NCBI RefSeq assembly: GCF_003173355.1
Contig: NZ_QGMY01000006.1
Coordinates: forward strand, 124,001-188,000
Source: Methanospirillum lacunae
GTDB lineage: Archaea; Halobacteriota; Methanomicrobia; Methanomicrobiales; Methanospirillaceae
Direction: 5' to 3'
Length of the DNA stretch: 64,000 nucleotides
Shown here: piece after piece, positions 31,835 to 44,745 of the stretch
Numbering within the stretch: the first letter of the stretch is position 1
Layout of the letters: the number at the start of each line of letters is the position of its first letter
Translations under genes and position numbers: made by a program
The notes under the pieces: model-generated
Database searches by the model: none
Seen by the model: only the letters and a program-made list of their open reading frames with translations
What the model was told of the DNA's origin: nothing

Positions 31835-31854
31835 TGTTGCAACCGGTTGCAACA
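31835..31854. promoter_or_regulatory. 20-bp perfect palindrome upstream of non-coding element copy A
   Basis: TGTTGCAACCGGTTGCAACA is a perfect palindrome. The same 18-bp core occurs at 36949-36966. In both places it begins ~223-224 nt before the TTTATA box of the paired element, so it belongs to the duplicated unit. It looks like an operator for a dimeric DNA-binding protein. Confidence 0.6.
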
Positions 31855-32058
31855 AACAGAACCAAAGATTTCAGGTGTATATCCACGAAGATCAAAGATC
31901 TCATTTCACCTCCAGCTATCTTATACAATCTGATGCAACACAATCAGGAGGAGTCAATTTAGAAGAATAGCCACCAGAAATGTTGCTCATCTCATAATAA
32001 CACAATTATACCAACTAAATGGATTTCTAACTATTCTCCAGCAGTTTTAGCTAGCATG

Positions 32059-32299
32059 TTTATACCCTGTTTCATACAACGAGAGTATGTCACACAGCGA
32101 CCTGATAAACGGGCACAAAAAACCAGGCCCTTACAGTCACTGTGAACTTAGATGAGTAGCGTTCACATGTCCTCCTACAACCGAAACTTCTCATCATCAA
32201 AATCCGGGTCCTCTCCCTTGAGGAGAACACCGGATGCGTTCAGTGCGATGCAACAGTCCGAATTTCAACCAGCCAAAATCAGGCTGGTTCTCCTCCTAC
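32059..32299 (+). ncRNA. Structured non-coding element, copy A (candidate sRNA or leader)
   Basis: A box A-like TTTATA (32059-32064) lies in a block shared with copy B (TTTATACCCTGTTTCA, GTATGTCACAC). Predicted hairpins: GGGC/GCCC (32111-32130); ATCCGG/CCGGAT with inner TCCTC/GAGGA (32202-32235); AACCAGCC/GGCTGGTT with a 7-nt loop (32267-32289). The motif TCCTCCTAC occurs twice outside the stems (32170-32178 and 32291-32299), 121 nt apart. The motif is complementary to GGAGGA-type SD sequences. The element ends ~30 nt before the small HTH gene at 32329, so it may be its 5' leader or a separate RNA. Transcription from ~32087 is inferred, not seen. Confidence 0.6.
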
Positions 32300-32328
32300 A
32301 TTACACAACAAATACTGAGGTATAATTT

Positions 32329-32580
32329 ATGTTCACACCAGCAACCATCACCACAACCTATAATGACAGACAGATGACCCTGATACATTATCTTGAAAGC
32401 CGTTTAAAAGAGGGAAAAAACTTCTTCAAATCCAAGTACATCGCCAGGGACACCGGTCTTTCATCTAAAGAAGTGGGAACAAATATGGGCCTGCTCGCTG
32501 AAAACTGCCCAATGTTTTCAATCCAGAAGTACAGTTACTCAAACAGTACCACATGGCTGATTACACATCCCCAGGTATAA
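32329..32580 (+). CDS. Small HTH-like protein (DUF7123-like)
   Basis: 83 residues. The central part (KNFFKSKYIARDTGLSSKEV, then GTNMGLLAENCP and STTWLI) matches a small archaeal winged-helix family I know from haloarchaea and methanogens as DUF7123. SKEVGTN would be the recognition helix. GAGGT at 32317-32321, 7 nt before the ATG, supports the start. It lies directly downstream of non-coding element A, which may control it. Role unknown; probably a DNA-binding regulator. Confidence 0.72.
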   Translation: MFTPATITTTYNDRQMTLIHYLESRLKEGKNFFKSKYIARDTGLSSKEVGTNMGLLAENCPMFSIQKYSYSNSTTWLITHPQV

Positions 32581-32600
32581 CCACTTTTTTGCTCGTATCT

Positions 32601-33230
32601 TCACTGACCCAGAGACTCCATTAATTTGAAAAAAAACTCAGGTTTCTTAGTCAGATACAGTTGATACCAGGCCTCAAGTGTCTCTTCCCGCATGACTCCC
32701 AGCTTTTTCATCACCTCATATGCAAAATCAACAGATCCAACCCCACTTGCAGTGATGAGATTGCCATCAGAGACTGCAGGTTGTAATTGATAGTATTTTT
32801 CACCAGAATACCCGGGGCAGAATTGCTTCAGGACTTCGAGATCATTGCTCGTATGGGGCCGGTTATTGAGCAATCCAGCATTTGCAATGGCCATGGTCGC
32901 TCCACAGATAGCACCGACAACCATGCCAGTTTCAAGAATATCCCTGACTTTTCCAAGCACAGGCTCCTGGATCGGCTCAAGCCAGGTCATAGCCCCGGGA
33001 AGGATGAGAAGTCTGTCGGGAGCAGCCTCTATCTCATCTATCGTCATATCAGGCACAAGCCGAAGGCCACCCATGGTCGTGATTGGATCACGTGTCCGGC
33101 CGCATAAACGAAGATGATATTTTTTATCAGGAGACTGTAAAAATCTGCCAGATACAAGTTCAGGAAGAAGGAAGGCAGGTTCCCAGTCTGCCATAGTATC
33201 CTGAATATAGAGATAGAGAAGGTTCGTCAT
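32601..33230 (-). CDS. DJ-1/PfpI family protein
   Basis: 209 residues with the class I glutamine-amidotransferase-like fold of DJ-1/PfpI: LLILPGAMTWLEP and the nucleophile elbow VVGAICGATMAIANAG, where Cys is the expected reactive residue, followed by HTSNDLEVLKQ. The C-terminal TASGVGSVDFAYEVMKKLG is typical of the YdeA/ThiJ-like branch. Members act as glyoxalases, deglycases, chaperones or peptidases; the activity here cannot be decided. It is convergent with the small HTH gene and divergent from the GNAT at 33481. Confidence 0.88.
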   Translation of the reverse strand: MTNLLYLYIQDTMADWEPAFLLPELVSGRFLQSPDKKYHLRLCGRTRDPITTMGGLRLVPDMTIDEIEAAPDRLLILPGAMTWLEPIQEPVLGKVRDILETGMVVGAICGATMAIANAGLLNNRPHTSNDLEVLKQFCPGYSGEKYYQLQPAVSDGNLITASGVGSVDFAYEVMKKLGVMREETLEAWYQLYLTKKPEFFFKLMESLGQ

Positions 33231-33480
33231 TTTTACTTATTAGGCATAATCTGATGAAATAATTATCCCAGTATATGAAAGTCACACAGGGAATATCTAA
33301 TTCGTTGAGAATACCTCATTTCTTGAATAGAATTTAATGTATGGAGACTCTTCATAATCTCCAGTCAGGAACCAAATCCCTTAATTTATATCGGGCCCGT
33401 GATCTTTTCATCATAGAGTATTAACTTAAGTAAAACGATAGAACCTATCAATTAATACACTCTCCATCTCTATCCTGTTT

Positions 33481-33996
33481 GTGACAGTTCAGAAAATATC
33501 TACCATCATCCAATATGTGCCGGTTCAGGTGTCTGATCTGGAGCGGATCAATGAGTTATCCAACATGCCAGAATTAGCCGGCCATTTTGAGACCATTCCA
33601 CCGGTATCGATGGAGACAACAAAGAATCTCTACAGGCAGATCGTAAGTGGTATCGTTTCTCTGTGGGGTATTCACGAGGAAGAACAAATAATTGGTGGAG
33701 CAGGATTCTTCGTTTATCCCCCGGGCACCAGGCTTTCACACACGGCAACTTTTTTCCTTTTTCTTGAACCTGATTCCTGGGGAAAGGGCATCGGTACGAG
33801 GACCATTCAGTTTCTTGAGGATGTTATTAGGAGTCGTGGATATATCAGGATGGATTGCATGGTGGTAATCCATAATAACAGAGCAATACGGCTCTATGAA
33901 CATATGGGATTTAAACGGGAAGGAATAAAACAGAAAGCATACCTCTTTGACGGGGAATTTACAGATCTCCTGCTCATGGCAAAAGTCTTTCCATAA
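33481..33996 (+). CDS. GNAT family N-acetyltransferase (RimJ/RimL-like)
   Basis: 171 residues. Motif A is FLEPDSWGKGIGTRTIQFLE. The C-terminal motif NNRAIRLYEHMGFKREGIKQ is characteristic of RimJ/RimL- and diamine-acetyltransferase-like GNATs. The start is GTG 33481 or a later GTG at 33516; no SD is evident. The substrate is not known. It lies alone, upstream of the TPR gene. Confidence 0.87.
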   Translation: MTVQKISTIIQYVPVQVSDLERINELSNMPELAGHFETIPPVSMETTKNLYRQIVSGIVSLWGIHEEEQIIGGAGFFVYPPGTRLSHTATFFLFLEPDSWGKGIGTRTIQFLEDVIRSRGYIRMDCMVVIHNNRAIRLYEHMGFKREGIKQKAYLFDGEFTDLLLMAKVFP

Positions 33997-34218
33997 CCAT
34001 TGAATAGAACCGGTTTTAGGATACAGGCTAGTTCAGTTATCCTAACAAGACCTCCCCATCAAAGAGAATTTTTTGTATCGCAAAATAATGGGACAGGTTC
34101 CCTGATTTCCTTGAAAAAGAAGGTATTGTTCATAATCGGTTACCTTATCTCAATCCCAAAGATTTGTAGTAAAGAACATGGCGACAGAACTATTTCATTT
34201 GAAACGGCACCTTATCAT

Positions 34219-34701
34219 ATGACTGAACGTCCTCTCCTGATATTGCTCGTACTAATACCAATACTCCTTGTGTCCAGCACCCTGGTATGTGCAGAAACAC
34301 CAACTGATCTCTATAAGCAAGGGCTTGCTTATTCAAATCAGGGCAACTATGAAGAGGCACTCAAAGTGTTCAACCAGGCGATACAGATAAATTCAAACTC
34401 AACGTTGTTGTGGCTGAATAAAGGCAATACGCTATCTTCTCTCGGGAGGTATCAGGAAGCACTCGATGCTTTTGATAATGTGACACGGATTGATTTCTCA
34501 AACAAGGATGTATGGTACCCCAGGGGAGTCGCATATTCTGGCCTTGATAATTATGATATGGCTCTTCATGCGTTCAGCAAGGCAATCCAATATTATCCCA
34601 ATAATGCACAGGCCTACAAGAAGAAAGGGGATTTATTCATGGCTCTTGGAAGATATGATGAGGCGATCCTGGCATACGACGAGGTGAGAAGGATTACTTG
34701 A
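34219..34701 (+). CDS. Secreted or lipid-proximal TPR protein
   Basis: 160 residues from ATG 34219, where a signal peptide begins (MTERPLLILLVLIPILLVSS, predicted cleavage after VCA). The frame is open back to 34000, but the extra 73 residues have no domain character, so I reject the longer start. Four tetratricopeptide repeats fill the mature protein: each has the W/Y-G-A-Y/F-A-P spacing, e.g. GLAYSNQGNYEEALKVFNQA and GDLFMALGRYDEAILAYDEV. TPRs form protein-binding solenoids; the partner is unknown. It is short for a TPR protein and ends directly after repeat four. Confidence 0.8.
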   Translation: MTERPLLILLVLIPILLVSSTLVCAETPTDLYKQGLAYSNQGNYEEALKVFNQAIQINSNSTLLWLNKGNTLSSLGRYQEALDAFDNVTRIDFSNKDVWYPRGVAYSGLDNYDMALHAFSKAIQYYPNNAQAYKKKGDLFMALGRYDEAILAYDEVRRIT

Positions 34702-34867
34702 TACTCTCTTCATGCTCATTTTCTCGTCTTCCGACAAGAGAGAGTCATGCCTAAAAATAGATATCACCCGATATTTTCTTATGGTCATAATTTGAATTAG
34801 GATACAGGGCTCATAGATCCAGATAATGCATATCAGCTTGAACAAATCGTAATGCTCTATCAGGAAA

Positions 34868-36793
34868 ATGACAAAAATTCATTCAATTTTATTTATATCC
34901 TCTGATGAATATTCTTACAAGACAGCCAGGGATGTGTTATCAGAAGATGGATACGAGATACTCTCGTCAGATAATACAGAAGTACTAATGAGACCATCAG
35001 GACTGTCTCCATTTTCCCTGATAATTATCGATATCTCTACGGCTGTAGGTACAATAACTCTATTAAGTCAAGAGATTGTTGACCAGTTGCCATTCTCCAT
35101 CCCACTTCTTTTCATCCTTCCAGATACTGACACCTTTGTCCCAGACAAGTTTTCAGAATATTGTGTAGACTTTCTCAAAAAACCTTTTTCCAAAGATGAA
35201 TTACTGTTAAGAGTCAGGAATAGTATTGCTCTTCACCATCTACAAACGCTCACCAAAAACCAGACCGGGATGATAAATCAGGAGTACAACGGTGATACTC
35301 CGGAATTACACCATACATTAAACCAGGAAATGGACTATTCTGACACCAGGGATTTTTATCTGAAGGTGTTGGATGATTTTCCAAATCCTGTCTGGCGCTC
35401 TAATATTTCAGGAAAATGTGACTTTTTTAACCGGAACTGGTTAGAGTTTACCGGGAGAGCAATGGAAGAGGAACTTGGTGATGGATGGGCAGAAGGTGTC
35501 CATCCGGATGACTTTGAAAGATGCCTTAAAATATATATTGATAATTTTGGTAAACAATTACCATTTGAGATGGAATATCGTCTCCGTTTTCATGATGGCA
35601 CATACCGATGGATACTAGACTGTGGAAATCCGTTCTTTGAACCTGATGGAACTTTTAAAGGATATATTGGATCATGTTACGATATTCAGGACCGGAAAAC
35701 TGCAGAAGAACTATTGAATAATGCAAATATTGAACTTGAAAAGAAGATATTAGAAATTAATACCAGCCGGTTTCAGCTGCAGGAGACTAAAGATTATCTA
35801 GAAAAATTGATAGCATCAGCAAACGCTCCTATCATTGTTTGGAACCCATTCTGCATAATAACCAAGGCTAACGAAGCATTGGGAGATCTAATTGGTTTAT
35901 CACCAGCTGAAATTATCGGCAATAACCTTTCCTCAGTTTTTCCCCAGGAATTCCTGGAAAAAATCAAGATCGAAGAGCCAAACCTACATAATCGTGGTCT
36001 CAAAGAGGTTGTTGAGATACCCATAACTCACCAGTCGGGTGAGATGAGGATTGTTCTCTGGAATTTTGCCCCAGTTTTTAGTCATCCAGATGAATGTGTG
36101 GCGGTTATCGCTCAGGGGCAGGATATTACAGACCATATCCAGACAGAAAAGGCATTAAAACAGTTGAATCGGCAACTCAATCTTATGAGTAGTATTACCA
36201 GGCATGACATCCTCAATCAGGTAAATGTAATAAAATTAGTCCTTGAACTCCTCAAACCTTCTGTTCCACAACAACCATATAAAAAATATCTTGATGCAGT
36301 TGAAACAGCAACCGGAAATATCCACACACAGATAGAATTCACAAAAATATACCAGGAACTTGGATCTCATGATCCACAATGGGAGAACCTCTATATCCTG
36401 ATTTGTTCCCTGCAAGTACCGGAAAAAATTTCTTTTTCATGTTCTATTAAAAAGATCGAGGTGCATGCCGACCATCTCCTCAGGCGTGTCTTTGATAATT
36501 TACTTGATAACTCGATAAGACATGGAGAAAAAGTAACAGAGATACATGTATCCTGCTCAAGAAATCCATCAGGAATCACTATAATTTGGGAAGATAATGG
36601 GATCGGGATTAAACAAGAAGAGAAGATCAAAATATTTGATCTCGGCTATGGCAAGAATACCGGTCTTGGACTCTATCTTATTCGGGAAGTTCTTCAGATA
36701 ACAGGAATTACCATTGCAGAAACCGGAGAGGAGGGAAAGGGAGCAAGATTTGAGATCAATGTTCCAAACCAGGGATGGCGGATGTCAAAATAA
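34868..36793 (+). CDS. REC-PAS-PAS histidine kinase (RHDILN type), soluble
   Basis: 641 residues, no membrane segment. The N-terminal receiver-like domain (about 5-125) has SSDE, the Asp in LIIIDIS and K in FLKKPFSKDE. PAS 1 is about 155-285 (VHPDDFERCL, then YRWILDCGNPFFE), a coiled coil follows, and PAS 2 is about 310-425. The phosphoacceptor helix has ITRHDILNQ (His ~448), typical of Methanomicrobiales kinases. The ATPase domain carries LLDNSIRHG, WEDNGIGI and YGKNTGLGLYLIREVL. A likely cytoplasmic sensor in a phosphorelay with its own input receiver. GGAAA precedes the ATG. It stands alone, and non-coding element B follows. Confidence 0.9.
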   Translation: MTKIHSILFISSDEYSYKTARDVLSEDGYEILSSDNTEVLMRPSGLSPFSLIIIDISTAVGTITLLSQEIVDQLPFSIPLLFILPDTDTFVPDKFSEYCVDFLKKPFSKDELLLRVRNSIALHHLQTLTKNQTGMINQEYNGDTPELHHTLNQEMDYSDTRDFYLKVLDDFPNPVWRSNISGKCDFFNRNWLEFTGRAMEEELGDGWAEGVHPDDFERCLKIYIDNFGKQLPFEMEYRLRFHDGTYRWILDCGNPFFEPDGTFKGYIGSCYDIQDRKTAEELLNNANIELEKKILEINTSRFQLQETKDYLEKLIASANAPIIVWNPFCIITKANEALGDLIGLSPAEIIGNNLSSVFPQEFLEKIKIEEPNLHNRGLKEVVEIPITHQSGEMRIVLWNFAPVFSHPDECVAVIAQGQDITDHIQTEKALKQLNRQLNLMSSITRHDILNQVNVIKLVLELLKPSVPQQPYKKYLDAVETATGNIHTQIEFTKIYQELGSHDPQWENLYILICSLQVPEKISFSCSIKKIEVHADHLLRRVFDNLLDNSIRHGEKVTEIHVSCSRNPSGITIIWEDNGIGIKQEEKIKIFDLGYGKNTGLGLYLIREVLQITGITIAETGEEGKGARFEINVPNQGWRMSK

Positions 36794-36948
36794 CCACGCC
36801 AGACGTGTTATTCAACTGGATATGTACATTTGTCTGTAACCACCCGGCCAATCAATTAGTAAAACTCTCAACTCTTTATGCCGCGATGATGACATCAACC
36901 ACTATTCAAAATTACTAACCCAGATAATAAATATCATAATTCATGGCT

Positions 36949-36966
36949 GTTGCAACCGGTTGCAAC
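36949..36966. promoter_or_regulatory. 18-bp perfect palindrome upstream of non-coding element copy B
   Basis: GTTGCAACCGGTTGCAAC, identical to the core at 31836-31853. It begins 223 nt before the TTTATA box of element B. Confidence 0.6.
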
Positions 36967-37171
36967 TGTGTAAACTCATGAAATCCAGGATTTATTATCG
37001 CGAGACATCACAAACTTCAGTACTGAATCCTTTGATTGAAACCAGATGTAACACAAAATAATGAAGTCTGTTCTCGTAGCATACAGATCCAGATGACAAT
37101 AACGGGAGAAATCATCTGCTTTAGAGAGAAAAATTATTTCTAACTATTTTCCATTAGTTTTTGCTATCTGG

Positions 37172-37420
37172 TTTATACCCTGTTTCACACAACGATAGTA
37201 TGTCACACCAAGACCTGCACAAACCTGCCGGAAACCAACCCGGTAGGGAAAAGCAGGAATGTGCACAATAGATGAGCTGCGTTCAACATGTCCTCCTACA
37301 ATCGATGCTTCTCATCATCACCTGGAACGAAAGCTCAATTTCGTTCCCTTCTCTCTTTCTGCTTTCTGCAATGATCCGAACGAATTCAACCAGCCATAAT
37401 ACGGCTGGTCTTCCTCCTAC
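37172..37420 (+). ncRNA. Structured non-coding element, copy B (candidate sRNA)
   Basis: A diverged homologue of the element at 32059-32299. It starts with TTTATACCCTGTTTCA and TATGTCACAC. Hairpins at matching places have different sequence but kept pairing: CCTGCCGG/CCGGTAGG (37224-37247), GGAACGAAA/TTTCGTTCC (37324-37347) and ACCAGCC/GGCTGGT (37389-37409). TCCTCCTAC occurs at 37291-37299 and 37412-37420, again 121 nt apart. No intact gene follows; the next recognisable item is a kinase remnant. Pairing kept while sequence changes argues for a functional RNA structure. A standalone RNA is the simplest reading for this copy. Confidence 0.6.
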
Positions 37421-37629
37421 ATACGAATTCTCTATTGAGACACACGGATCAAAAACCCTTTTAAGGACCACTACCTGGAATAATAGATTTACATGTTCGA
37501 CTATTATCATAACAGAATAATGAGGGTTTTTCGAAGTACATCGAAAGGACGTTGATATCTCCTGAAAAGAGAAGAAATCGATGAAAAAACTGAGAAGGAA
37601 AGAAGATTAATGCTTACTTTAACCTGATC

Positions 37630-42423: not shown

Positions 42424-44745
42424 TCACAGGTCGCTGATCCGCCTCCATACTCCATTCGGAACATGAATCTCAAACCTTACACCACTGTCTGCTTTCCCGG
42501 TTTCAACAATTGATATGCCGGTGATCTGAAGGATCTCATGAACCAGGAACATCCCAAATCCGGTATTTTTACCGAATCCTCTCGTAAATATCAGCTCTTT
42601 TTCATCATCAGCAATACCGATTCCATTATCAGAATACACCAGCACAATTCCTTTCTCTGCAATCTCAATGTTGAACGATATCTGGGTTACTTTCATACCA
42701 TGCCGGAGTGAGTTCTCAATAAGATTAAAGATCACTTTCTCTAACATATTGTCTGCATATATCTCGATATTGGAGACTTCATTGGAGAATTGTACTGTTC
42801 TCTCTCTGAACTGACTGGCTGAACGTCTGAAAAGAACACCAACATCATGCCAGCCAGGCTTTGTAACCCCGACATCCTGATAATCACGGGTGAACTCTAT
42901 CTGAGTCCTCATTTTCTTAAGAACAGAACTCATCATATTCAGGTATAGGGAGTTTTCCTTGTCATCCGGGTTTTCATTGATGATATGTATATACATGATA
43001 ATTGAGGTCATCAGATTGAGCAGATCATGTCTGGTAATGCTTGAAAGCAGGTTCAGTTTAATGTTAGCTTCCTGAATTGCTCCTTCAAGTTTCCTCCGCT
43101 CGGTGATATCAATTCCGACAGAAATGACAGATGTTACAGTCCCGGTATCATCCCTGATTGCACGGTTGGTCCAGAGGATCCAGACAATCTCCCCGTTCTT
43201 TTTTCGGTTTGCGTTCTCACCCTGCTTGGACTTCTCTGAACTTGACTCAAGTTCATGTATAAACTGATTCGTATCTTTGTCATTCCAGGTATCTTCTGGA
43301 ATTATTGTCCCAATGAGGTTCAGTCCTACCAGTTCATCGGCAGTATATCCGAAGAACCGTTCAGCATAAGGGTTGATATACGTGATAACTCCATCAGGAG
43401 TAAAGGTCACCAGAATGTTATGGATATCCTGAACCAGGTTTCTGAACTTTTCCTCGCTTTTTTGAAGTTCCTTCTCCCTGGTAGTGAGAAATTGAATATA
43501 TTCCAGTAATTTTTTCTGTGTTGTACTCAGTTCCTTACTCGCTTGTTCCAGTCCTTGTGTTTTTGCCTCAACAATCATTTCAAGTTTTACACGGGACTCT
43601 GACACTTTCTGCTCTGCCTTGTGTCTCTTCTTAATTAGTATTATATGAACAGCAATGACCAACACCAGGCACATGATGAGAAAAAGGGCTAAAATTATTG
43701 TCCCGGGTTCAACAATGATGGATGCCGGCTTATTGATAACTGTTGATCCAGGAGGGAGAACGGAAGGATTTAGTCCGTATTTAACCATCTCATGATAATC
43801 AAATACAACCGGATTCGAACTATCTTTTCGAACTGGTATTTCTGATGGTGGAGTTCCTTGCAGAATCAGGTCTGCCATCAGGGCTGCATTTCTACCCTGG
43901 TCATATTGGGAGATGAGTGCTCCTCCTACAATCCCATCACCCATTCCATAATACCAGAGATGGAAAAGGGGGACATGCAGGTTCTGCTTTATAAACAGAA
44001 GGCTCTTGTCAAAATCTGTAGTAACCTGGTTTTTATCCTTAAAAGCAGAGAGGAGAAGTACTGAAGAGGACTGATTTATTGCCTGCAGTTTCTGGGCATA
44101 TTCATTCCAGGTCAGGTTAGCAAGTGAAAGAACCGTTAGATTGTATCCGGGGTAGGAGGAGCGATATCCAAGAAATTTTTCAACATCTGCTTTTCCACTG
44201 ATGGTATCATCAGATAAGGCAATTATCGTTCTGGCATCAGGCTGCAATTGAATCATCAGATCAATGGTCTCCTTCACAGACACTTCTTCCATTACACCGG
44301 TGATGAATGGGTTTGTTTCTGGAAGACCTACTCTGCTCTGCTCATTGATTCCAAAGAAAACAATAGGTGTGTTGTTGAATAACTCATGTTGCTTTTCGAG
44401 AACAAGATTCAGGGCACTATCATCTGCAACAAGGATGAGATCATACGCTGGAAGACGTCTGATTTTTTTGGTTAAACGCTGTGAAAACTCATTGATATCT
44501 TCAAGAGATGGAAAACGTTTGGCATCCATGAATTCAATGTCAAGGTCCACTTTTTCAGGGGAGAGAACAGACTTGACACCATCTATCTGATGAAAGACCG
44601 TGGGAAAATCTGGACTATATGAACTAATAAGAAGAATATGAGGATTGGCATGGATCTGATCCGGACTCAGATCACACAAAGACACACTAATACAGCATAA
44701 CAAAACGAACGTTAGTACAAGGAGGAACACTCTGCTTTGGTTCAA
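42424..44745 (-). CDS. Histidine kinase with extracellular ABC_sub_bind-type sensor
   Basis: 773 residues. A signal segment (1-25) is followed by an extracytoplasmic domain (about 35-340) resembling ABC_sub_bind periplasmic proteins (ILLISSYSPDFP, YDLILVADDSALNLVLE, PIVFFGINEQ). One TM helix lies at about 347-370. Then a coiled coil, a PAS domain (430-550), a phosphoacceptor helix with ITRHDLLNLM (His ~577) and an ATPase domain (NLIENSLRHG, YSDNGIGI, GFGKNTGFGMFLVHEIL). Here the binding-protein fold is fused to the kinase, in contrast to the separate binding proteins at 25644 and 55515. The start is TTG 44745, supported by GGAGGAG ~7 nt upstream. G-F-G replaces the usual G-L-G in the ATP lid. 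Confidence 0.9.
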   Translation of the reverse strand: MNQSRVFLLVLTFVLLCCISVSLCDLSPDQIHANPHILLISSYSPDFPTVFHQIDGVKSVLSPEKVDLDIEFMDAKRFPSLEDINEFSQRLTKKIRRLPAYDLILVADDSALNLVLEKQHELFNNTPIVFFGINEQSRVGLPETNPFITGVMEEVSVKETIDLMIQLQPDARTIIALSDDTISGKADVEKFLGYRSSYPGYNLTVLSLANLTWNEYAQKLQAINQSSSVLLLSAFKDKNQVTTDFDKSLLFIKQNLHVPLFHLWYYGMGDGIVGGALISQYDQGRNAALMADLILQGTPPSEIPVRKDSSNPVVFDYHEMVKYGLNPSVLPPGSTVINKPASIIVEPGTIILALFLIMCLVLVIAVHIILIKKRHKAEQKVSESRVKLEMIVEAKTQGLEQASKELSTTQKKLLEYIQFLTTREKELQKSEEKFRNLVQDIHNILVTFTPDGVITYINPYAERFFGYTADELVGLNLIGTIIPEDTWNDKDTNQFIHELESSSEKSKQGENANRKKNGEIVWILWTNRAIRDDTGTVTSVISVGIDITERRKLEGAIQEANIKLNLLSSITRHDLLNLMTSIIMYIHIINENPDDKENSLYLNMMSSVLKKMRTQIEFTRDYQDVGVTKPGWHDVGVLFRRSASQFRERTVQFSNEVSNIEIYADNMLEKVIFNLIENSLRHGMKVTQISFNIEIAEKGIVLVYSDNGIGIADDEKELIFTRGFGKNTGFGMFLVHEILQITGISIVETGKADSGVRFEIHVPNGVWRRISDL

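Follow-up and report, generated by a model that had tools for sequence, protein, structure and literature searches.

To our knowledge, targets have been identified for few archaeal regulatory RNAs. In Neisseria, the sibling RNAs NmsRA and NmsRB, two tandem free small RNAs (sRNAs) acting on tricarboxylic acid cycle genes, expose one anti-Shine-Dalgarno (anti-SD) stretch in a loop and a second in a single-stranded linker, both partly complementary to the target SD (PMC5362039). In the methanogenic archaeon Methanosarcina mazei, sRNA162 masks a predicted ribosome-binding site by means of an unstructured linker (PMC3510493), and in Caulobacter the Hfq-associated RNAs SisA-D form a conserved four-member sibling family with a known sponge, CrfA (PMC12559287). 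Here we analyze a 64,000-nucleotide (nt) stretch of the Methanospirillum lacunae genome (contig NZ_QGMY01000006.1, positions 124,001 to 188,000; the whole stretch is called the window), which holds two copies, A and B, of a structured RNA with two anti-SD motifs, UCCUCCUAC, and for which the candidate target is mspA, encoding the major sheath amyloid. Like the bacterial NmsR and Sis RNAs these are siblings, but they are archaeal, dispersed and mostly joined to a regulator-like gene; the likeness to sRNA162 is one of mode, and no sequence relation, for which no test was made, was apparent. If our inference holds, the Methanospirillum RNAs would work like NmsR and sRNA162.

Comparison of genomes revealed that copies A and B are members of a multicopy structured-RNA family of Methanospirillum under one shared, unusually elaborate promoter. 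The initial annotation had described a paralogous pair; the blocks, motifs and 121-nt spacing between the two TCCTCCTAC motifs in both copies were all present where it had placed them, and the relatedness stood, but the reading as a lone pair was rejected, because there are four more loci in the same genome and dozens in the genus. The third locus was found by DNA search, the fourth by the motif pair, and the fifth and sixth by motif 1 together with the promoter. In the window TCCTCCTAC occurs six times against 0.37 expected, a count reached in none of 100 shuffles; the occurrences outside the two copies, at 43921 and 44152, lie on opposite strands and lack a leader. In 10 of the 12 Methanospirillum genomes the motif pair was found, at 23 places, two of which (L029 and L047) sit in a coding gene and were excluded; a few lone motif 1 matches, such as L197, are likewise coding. 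Motif 1 and DUF7123 searches combined placed family loci in all 12 genomes.

Absence outside the genus refers to a DNA-similarity search, which gave matches in none of 49 genomes, and to a scan of about 85,000 species genomes for the exact motif 1 pattern, which matched Methanospirillum records, one Methanomicrobiales metagenome-assembled genome and Pseudomonas, the last taken as chance; the named records were of the genus Methanospirillum and M. stamsii. The family was not found in viral contigs. A known Rfam RNA was rejected for want of a match at gathering score: Rfam 15 gave no match in the window, only matches far under the cut-off at 31.8-37.6 kb, and six loci from the family and the target yielded nothing up to E 1, in agreement with the initial annotation, which knew of no described family of this kind.

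The family loci fall into types. Type I was compared in detail in 29 copies, all distinct, of which 25 are followed 21-67 nt downstream by an intact gene for DUF7123. Type II has the same promoter and motif 1, followed by a different small open reading frame (ORF); in the hungatei group, motif 1 falls within a longer reading frame (MSSYTDA). Type II proteins (L164 at about 2670 on the minus strand, L175, L177, L179, L190, L194, L199 and others) have a common C-terminus like LxDLVxSDxxFLxxLExxHYLxF, and the two tested had no Pfam match. Type III loci, of which there are at least three (L195, L196 and L198), have motif 1 without an assigned ORF; a short frame, MSSYIRAV-stop, is present in all three genomes; L196 ends in a hairpin, CAATGG..CCATTG, followed by TTTTTT. 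The second UCCUCCUAC, after hairpin P4, is usual in type I, the type for which it was demonstrated.

In single-sequence folds, a long P1 is followed by hairpin P2, whose loop contains motif 1, then by the variable P3 and, directly 5′ of motif 2, by P4. Stems that have diverged between copies A and B yet still pair, reported by the initial annotation, proved real, and the significant covariation whose lack it had named as a possible refutation was found for P2 and P4. Counted on MAFFT alignments of short segments, in which related copies are not independent, the covariation score of P2 was 0.267 against 0.145 in shuffles (none of 500 reached it; shifted versions gave at most 0.125; 18 copies) and that of P4 was 0.296 against 0.212 (1 of 500). 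RNAalifold predicted no pairs on MAFFT alignments, probably since stems of unequal length misalign, and counts were instead made on named structures: 76.6% of cells were paired with 17 double-change cells for P2, and 81.6% with 16 for P4, each reached by none of 500 shuffles. Pairs that span motif 1 were also more numerous than in flank shuffles, both for type I (17.4 versus 9.2; 29 copies) and for types II and III (15.0 versus 7.5), and P2 pairing is kept in type II copies having motif 1 inside a reading frame. Folding and covariation together thus predict that UCCUCCUAC is unpaired in the apical loop of P2, displaying the anti-SD segment, and in type I usually exposed once more just past P4. 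Copy A, G007_1 and L196, when folded locally, have no pair across motif 1; P2 of copy A forms in the whole-leader fold and is absent from the local one. A third UCCUCC-like segment lies in P3 of one clade (L009, L011, L038 and L081) and also in L016.

Ungapped alignment of the copies over 330 bp upstream revealed a GTTGCAAC palindrome at about -249, a half-site near -151, TTTC..ACT, GTTTT and a TATA box at -28. The palindrome is degenerate in some copies, and two contigs stop short of it. By coordinate comparison, the strict palindrome TTGCAACNNGTTGCAAC has sites exclusively at RNA loci in five genomes, and the reversed control gave 0. The spacing between these elements is fixed while the intervening sequence is unconserved, suggesting that a nucleoprotein assembly may form there; a transcription factor binding the GTTGCAAC palindrome would switch every sibling RNA at once. 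Many copies also have a recurrent CCGCG(A/T) element at about -315, upstream of the palindrome.

The RNA module with its shared predicted promoter is bound to no single gene, occurring at loci with another ORF, at loci without an ORF and as intact orphans. The small helix-turn-helix gene that the initial annotation placed after copy A is intact and encodes an 83-amino-acid (aa) DUF7123 protein (PF23438; 44.6 bits versus a cut-off of 27), a family on which our literature search found no paper. For copy B, which according to that annotation precedes no intact gene, tblastn gave no significant gene match, yet 1 of 62 conserved positions is broken, which lies inside the span of the intact copies (mean 1.24). 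About 5 kb separates copy A from copy B, as it does G007_1 from G007_2, and their order, spacing and sequence likeness make the two pairs likely orthologues; the gene of G007_2 is intact, and this comparison shows that copy B kept the RNA and lost the gene. Because the blocks of copy B match those of intact copies despite the lost gene, the RNA probably works without DUF7123. G009_3 likewise kept the conserved blocks with the gene gone, whereas G006_1 and G010_1 retain gene remnants, and not every relic is conserved: in L140, a decayed pseudogene copy, neither motif 1 nor the DUF7123 gene is intact. The conservation of orphan copies, together with the occurrence of the module with another ORF or none, favors a function in trans.

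Each of the two accounts offered by the initial annotation holds in part. For trans-acting anti-SD sRNAs, the conserved orphans and the loci with another ORF or none speak in favor; for the account in which copy B has outlasted its role as a leader, A and B both belong to the type I leaders associated with DUF7123, and the gene of copy B was indeed lost.

Target prediction from the motif, which the initial annotation had called for, pointed to the mRNA of the sheath protein gene mspA. In eight genomes the 5′ untranslated region (5′UTR) of mspA bears UGUAGGAGGA, the exact complement of the motif. Between M. hungatei, G001, M. stamsii and the genome of the window this 5′UTR, which includes AUGUAGGAGGA, hardly differs, and M. 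hungatei, M. stamsii and the window's genome have GTTGATGCTGAGAGTATCAGCATGAAATGTAGGAGGAAA in common. The mspA ORF of G003, taken for M. hungatei JF-1, has 377 aa, as published for MspA (PMC6242892). Members of the hungatei group start mspA with GTG, whereas ATG is used in the group to which the window's genome belongs (L235, L236 and L249). Across the 12 genomes, the pattern TGTAGGAGGAN{3,9}RTG had nine matches at mspA or a close paralogue, in eight genomes; the remainder fell on the RNA loci of the family, inside long frames, at a few other places and on a further structured RNA, unrelated to the family, which was the second recurrent match and in which the complement is predicted to be paired. 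Among the matches examined, no other protein gene had a start-site match as consistent. L161, a real gene among the GTAGGAGG start-site matches of the window's own genome, belongs to the MspA sheath protein family. The pairing length of motif 2 with mspA averaged 11.6 nt compared with 10.0 nt with shuffled flanks (p 0.006; the copies are not independent), and pairing of motif 1 beyond the nine-base core was borderline (p 0.06). Six segments were compared in predicted duplexes with mspA and 43 control leaders: with those of type II, type III and copy B motif 1, mspA outranked every control and so came first of 44, and with the other three it came third or fourth. Taken together, the complementarity makes mspA the best candidate target.

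Two further sequences were noted in this search. In G004 (L341 at 1500), a 309-aa ORF has TGTAGGAGGA close to its start, with a similar site at G007:C1:2181358, and may be a further target. Separately, L351 holds at about 1500 on the minus strand a conserved, apparently non-coding structured RNA of about 216 nt (orthologues L332, L335, L340, L344 and L345; L158 in the window's own genome), in which UUGUAGGAGG is predicted to pair with the RNA's own 5′ end and the terminal hairpin has compensatory changes; it had no Rfam match. A structured RNA with UGUAGGAGG was considered as a sponge and rejected, the motif being predicted to be paired.

We propose, with a probability of roughly 0.4, that the RNA siblings act at least partly in trans, pairing with and blocking mspA and its close paralogues. 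The exposed UCCUCCUAC(A) would pair with the ribosome-binding site UGUAGGAGGA of the mspA mRNA, and masking of this site would block translation of mspA and its close paralogues. Several observations weigh against this proposal. In the window's own genome, GTAGGAGGN{2,10}ATG is no commoner than its reversed control, and an excess of GTAGGAGG start sites genome-wide, also considered, was rejected on the same control. For motif 1 and motif 2 of copy A and motif 2 of copy B, two or three of the 43 control leaders pair equally well. The leader of the mspA family is inherited by descent, such that its many members amount to about one event, and many sheath-family members outside the mspA group lack the site. 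Finally, most copies run into DUF7123, making control in cis natural.

Such control is the main rival: the RNA would be a leader governing how its own DUF7123 mRNA is translated or how stable it is, via a protein (perhaps DUF7123) or via motif 2 acting on the local SD, with the gene-less copies as relics. The intact gene after most type I copies fits this reading, as does the single-copy ancestral DUF7123 gene, present once per genome and without the leader throughout the genus, which implies that leader and duplicated gene spread together; the DUF7123 genes of other Methanomicrobiales genera, among those examined, also had no such leader, and a role as the leader of every DUF7123 gene was therefore rejected. 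Pairing of motif 2 with the SD of its own mRNA has a probability of up to 0.5 in some copies of the hungatei group but is near 0 in about half of the copies, and that of motif 1 is 0.14 in one copy and otherwise at most 0.03; with pairing absent or partial, own-SD pairing was not supported as a general function. These pairing results, the orphan copies B and G009_3, and the type II and III loci, which carry the module without DUF7123, weaken control in cis, which is possible though somewhat unlikely.

We considered it improbable that the RNAs are general anti-SD RNAs lowering translation of many mRNAs with a strong GGAGG and having no special target. UCCUCCUAC is complementary to any strong SD, some control leaders pair with three of the segments as well as mspA does, and a third UCCUCC occurs in P3 of one clade, but conservation extends past the SD core to UAC and the next A, and the ten-base complement marks almost solely mspA start sites among conserved protein genes. 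A translated short upstream ORF (AUG UCC UCC UAC, MSSY...) acting as a leader peptide is quite unlikely, despite the AUG before motif 1 in nearly all copies, the type III frame in three genomes and the longer type II ORF of the hungatei group: past MSSY the type I frame is unconserved, and coding by the conserved blocks, also named as a possible refutation by the initial annotation, was not supported there; AUC replaces AUG in L070, L072 and L178; motif 2 has no AUG; and hairpin pairing is kept across types. Least credible of all is conservation as DNA only, in which promoter and operator would matter and the RNA would play no part; although the promoter ranks with the best-conserved parts, the compensatory changes in P2 and P4 disfavor this reading, as does the conservation of motifs that follow the TATA box at about 110 and 230 nt.

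Table 1. Features of copies A and B in the window (positions are those of the window).
Feature	Copy	Position	Strand	Basis or remark
Block TTTATACCCTGTTTCA	A; B	starts 32059; 37172
Block GTATGTCACAC	A; B	starts 32085; 37198
Motif TCCTCCTAC	A; B	starts 32170, 32291; 37291, 37412
Palindrome GTTGCAACCGGTTGCAAC, putative operator	A	31836..31853	+	-249 from GTATGTCAC; spacing constant in most copies
Half-site ATGCAAC	A	31933..31939	+	about -151; distance constant in most copies
Promoter: TTTCTAACT, GTTTT, TATA box TTTATA (32059-32064)	A	32024..32064	+	29-copy ungapped alignment
Structured RNA	A	32085..32299	+	start predicted at conserved GTATGTCAC
Hairpin P2, GATGAG/CTCATC, motif 1 in loop	A	32151..32195	+	family model, covariation
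Motif 1, UCCUCCUAC	A	32170..32178	+
Variable hairpin P3, stem ATCCGG/CCGGAT	A	32202..32235	+	read directly in sequence
Hairpin P4, adjoining motif 2 on its 5′ side	A	32267..32289	+	covariation, folding
Motif 2, UCCUCCUAC	A	32291..32299	+
DUF7123 (PF23438) small helix-turn-helix protein gene, downstream	A	32329..32580	+	profile match
Palindrome GTTGCAACCGGTTGCAAC	B	36949..36966	+
Half-site ATGTAAC	B	37046..37052	+	alignment of copies
Promoter, including TATA box (37172-37177)	B	37137..37177	+	alignment of 29 copies
Structured RNA, gene lost	B	37198..37420	+	folding, comparison of copies
Hairpin P2, motif 1 in loop	B	37271..37316	+	folding, flank shuffles
Motif 1	B	37291..37299	+
Variable hairpin P3, GGAACGAAA/TTTCGTTCC	B	37324..37347	+	sequence and folding
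Hairpin P4	B	37389..37409	+	folding
Motif 2	B	37412..37420	+
Possible DUF7123 gene remnant (weak)	B	37490..37560	+	by eye against likely G007 orthologue; no significant tblastn match

Our search of the literature found nothing on regulation of the Methanospirillum sheath, an amyloid shell. Going beyond action in trans on mspA, we tentatively suggest that the sheath might be controlled by a sibling-RNA regulon under a private operator, in which the same module would serve as DUF7123 leader, as leader of another small protein and as free sRNA, masking the ribosome-binding sites of mspA and its close paralogues. The family offers a defined promoter, structure and putative operator and a specific candidate target, and suggests that within one regulon a single RNA module can be common to leaders of mRNAs and to free-standing RNAs. 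If this is true, sibling RNAs may govern the making of the amyloid sheath in a methane-producing archaeon.

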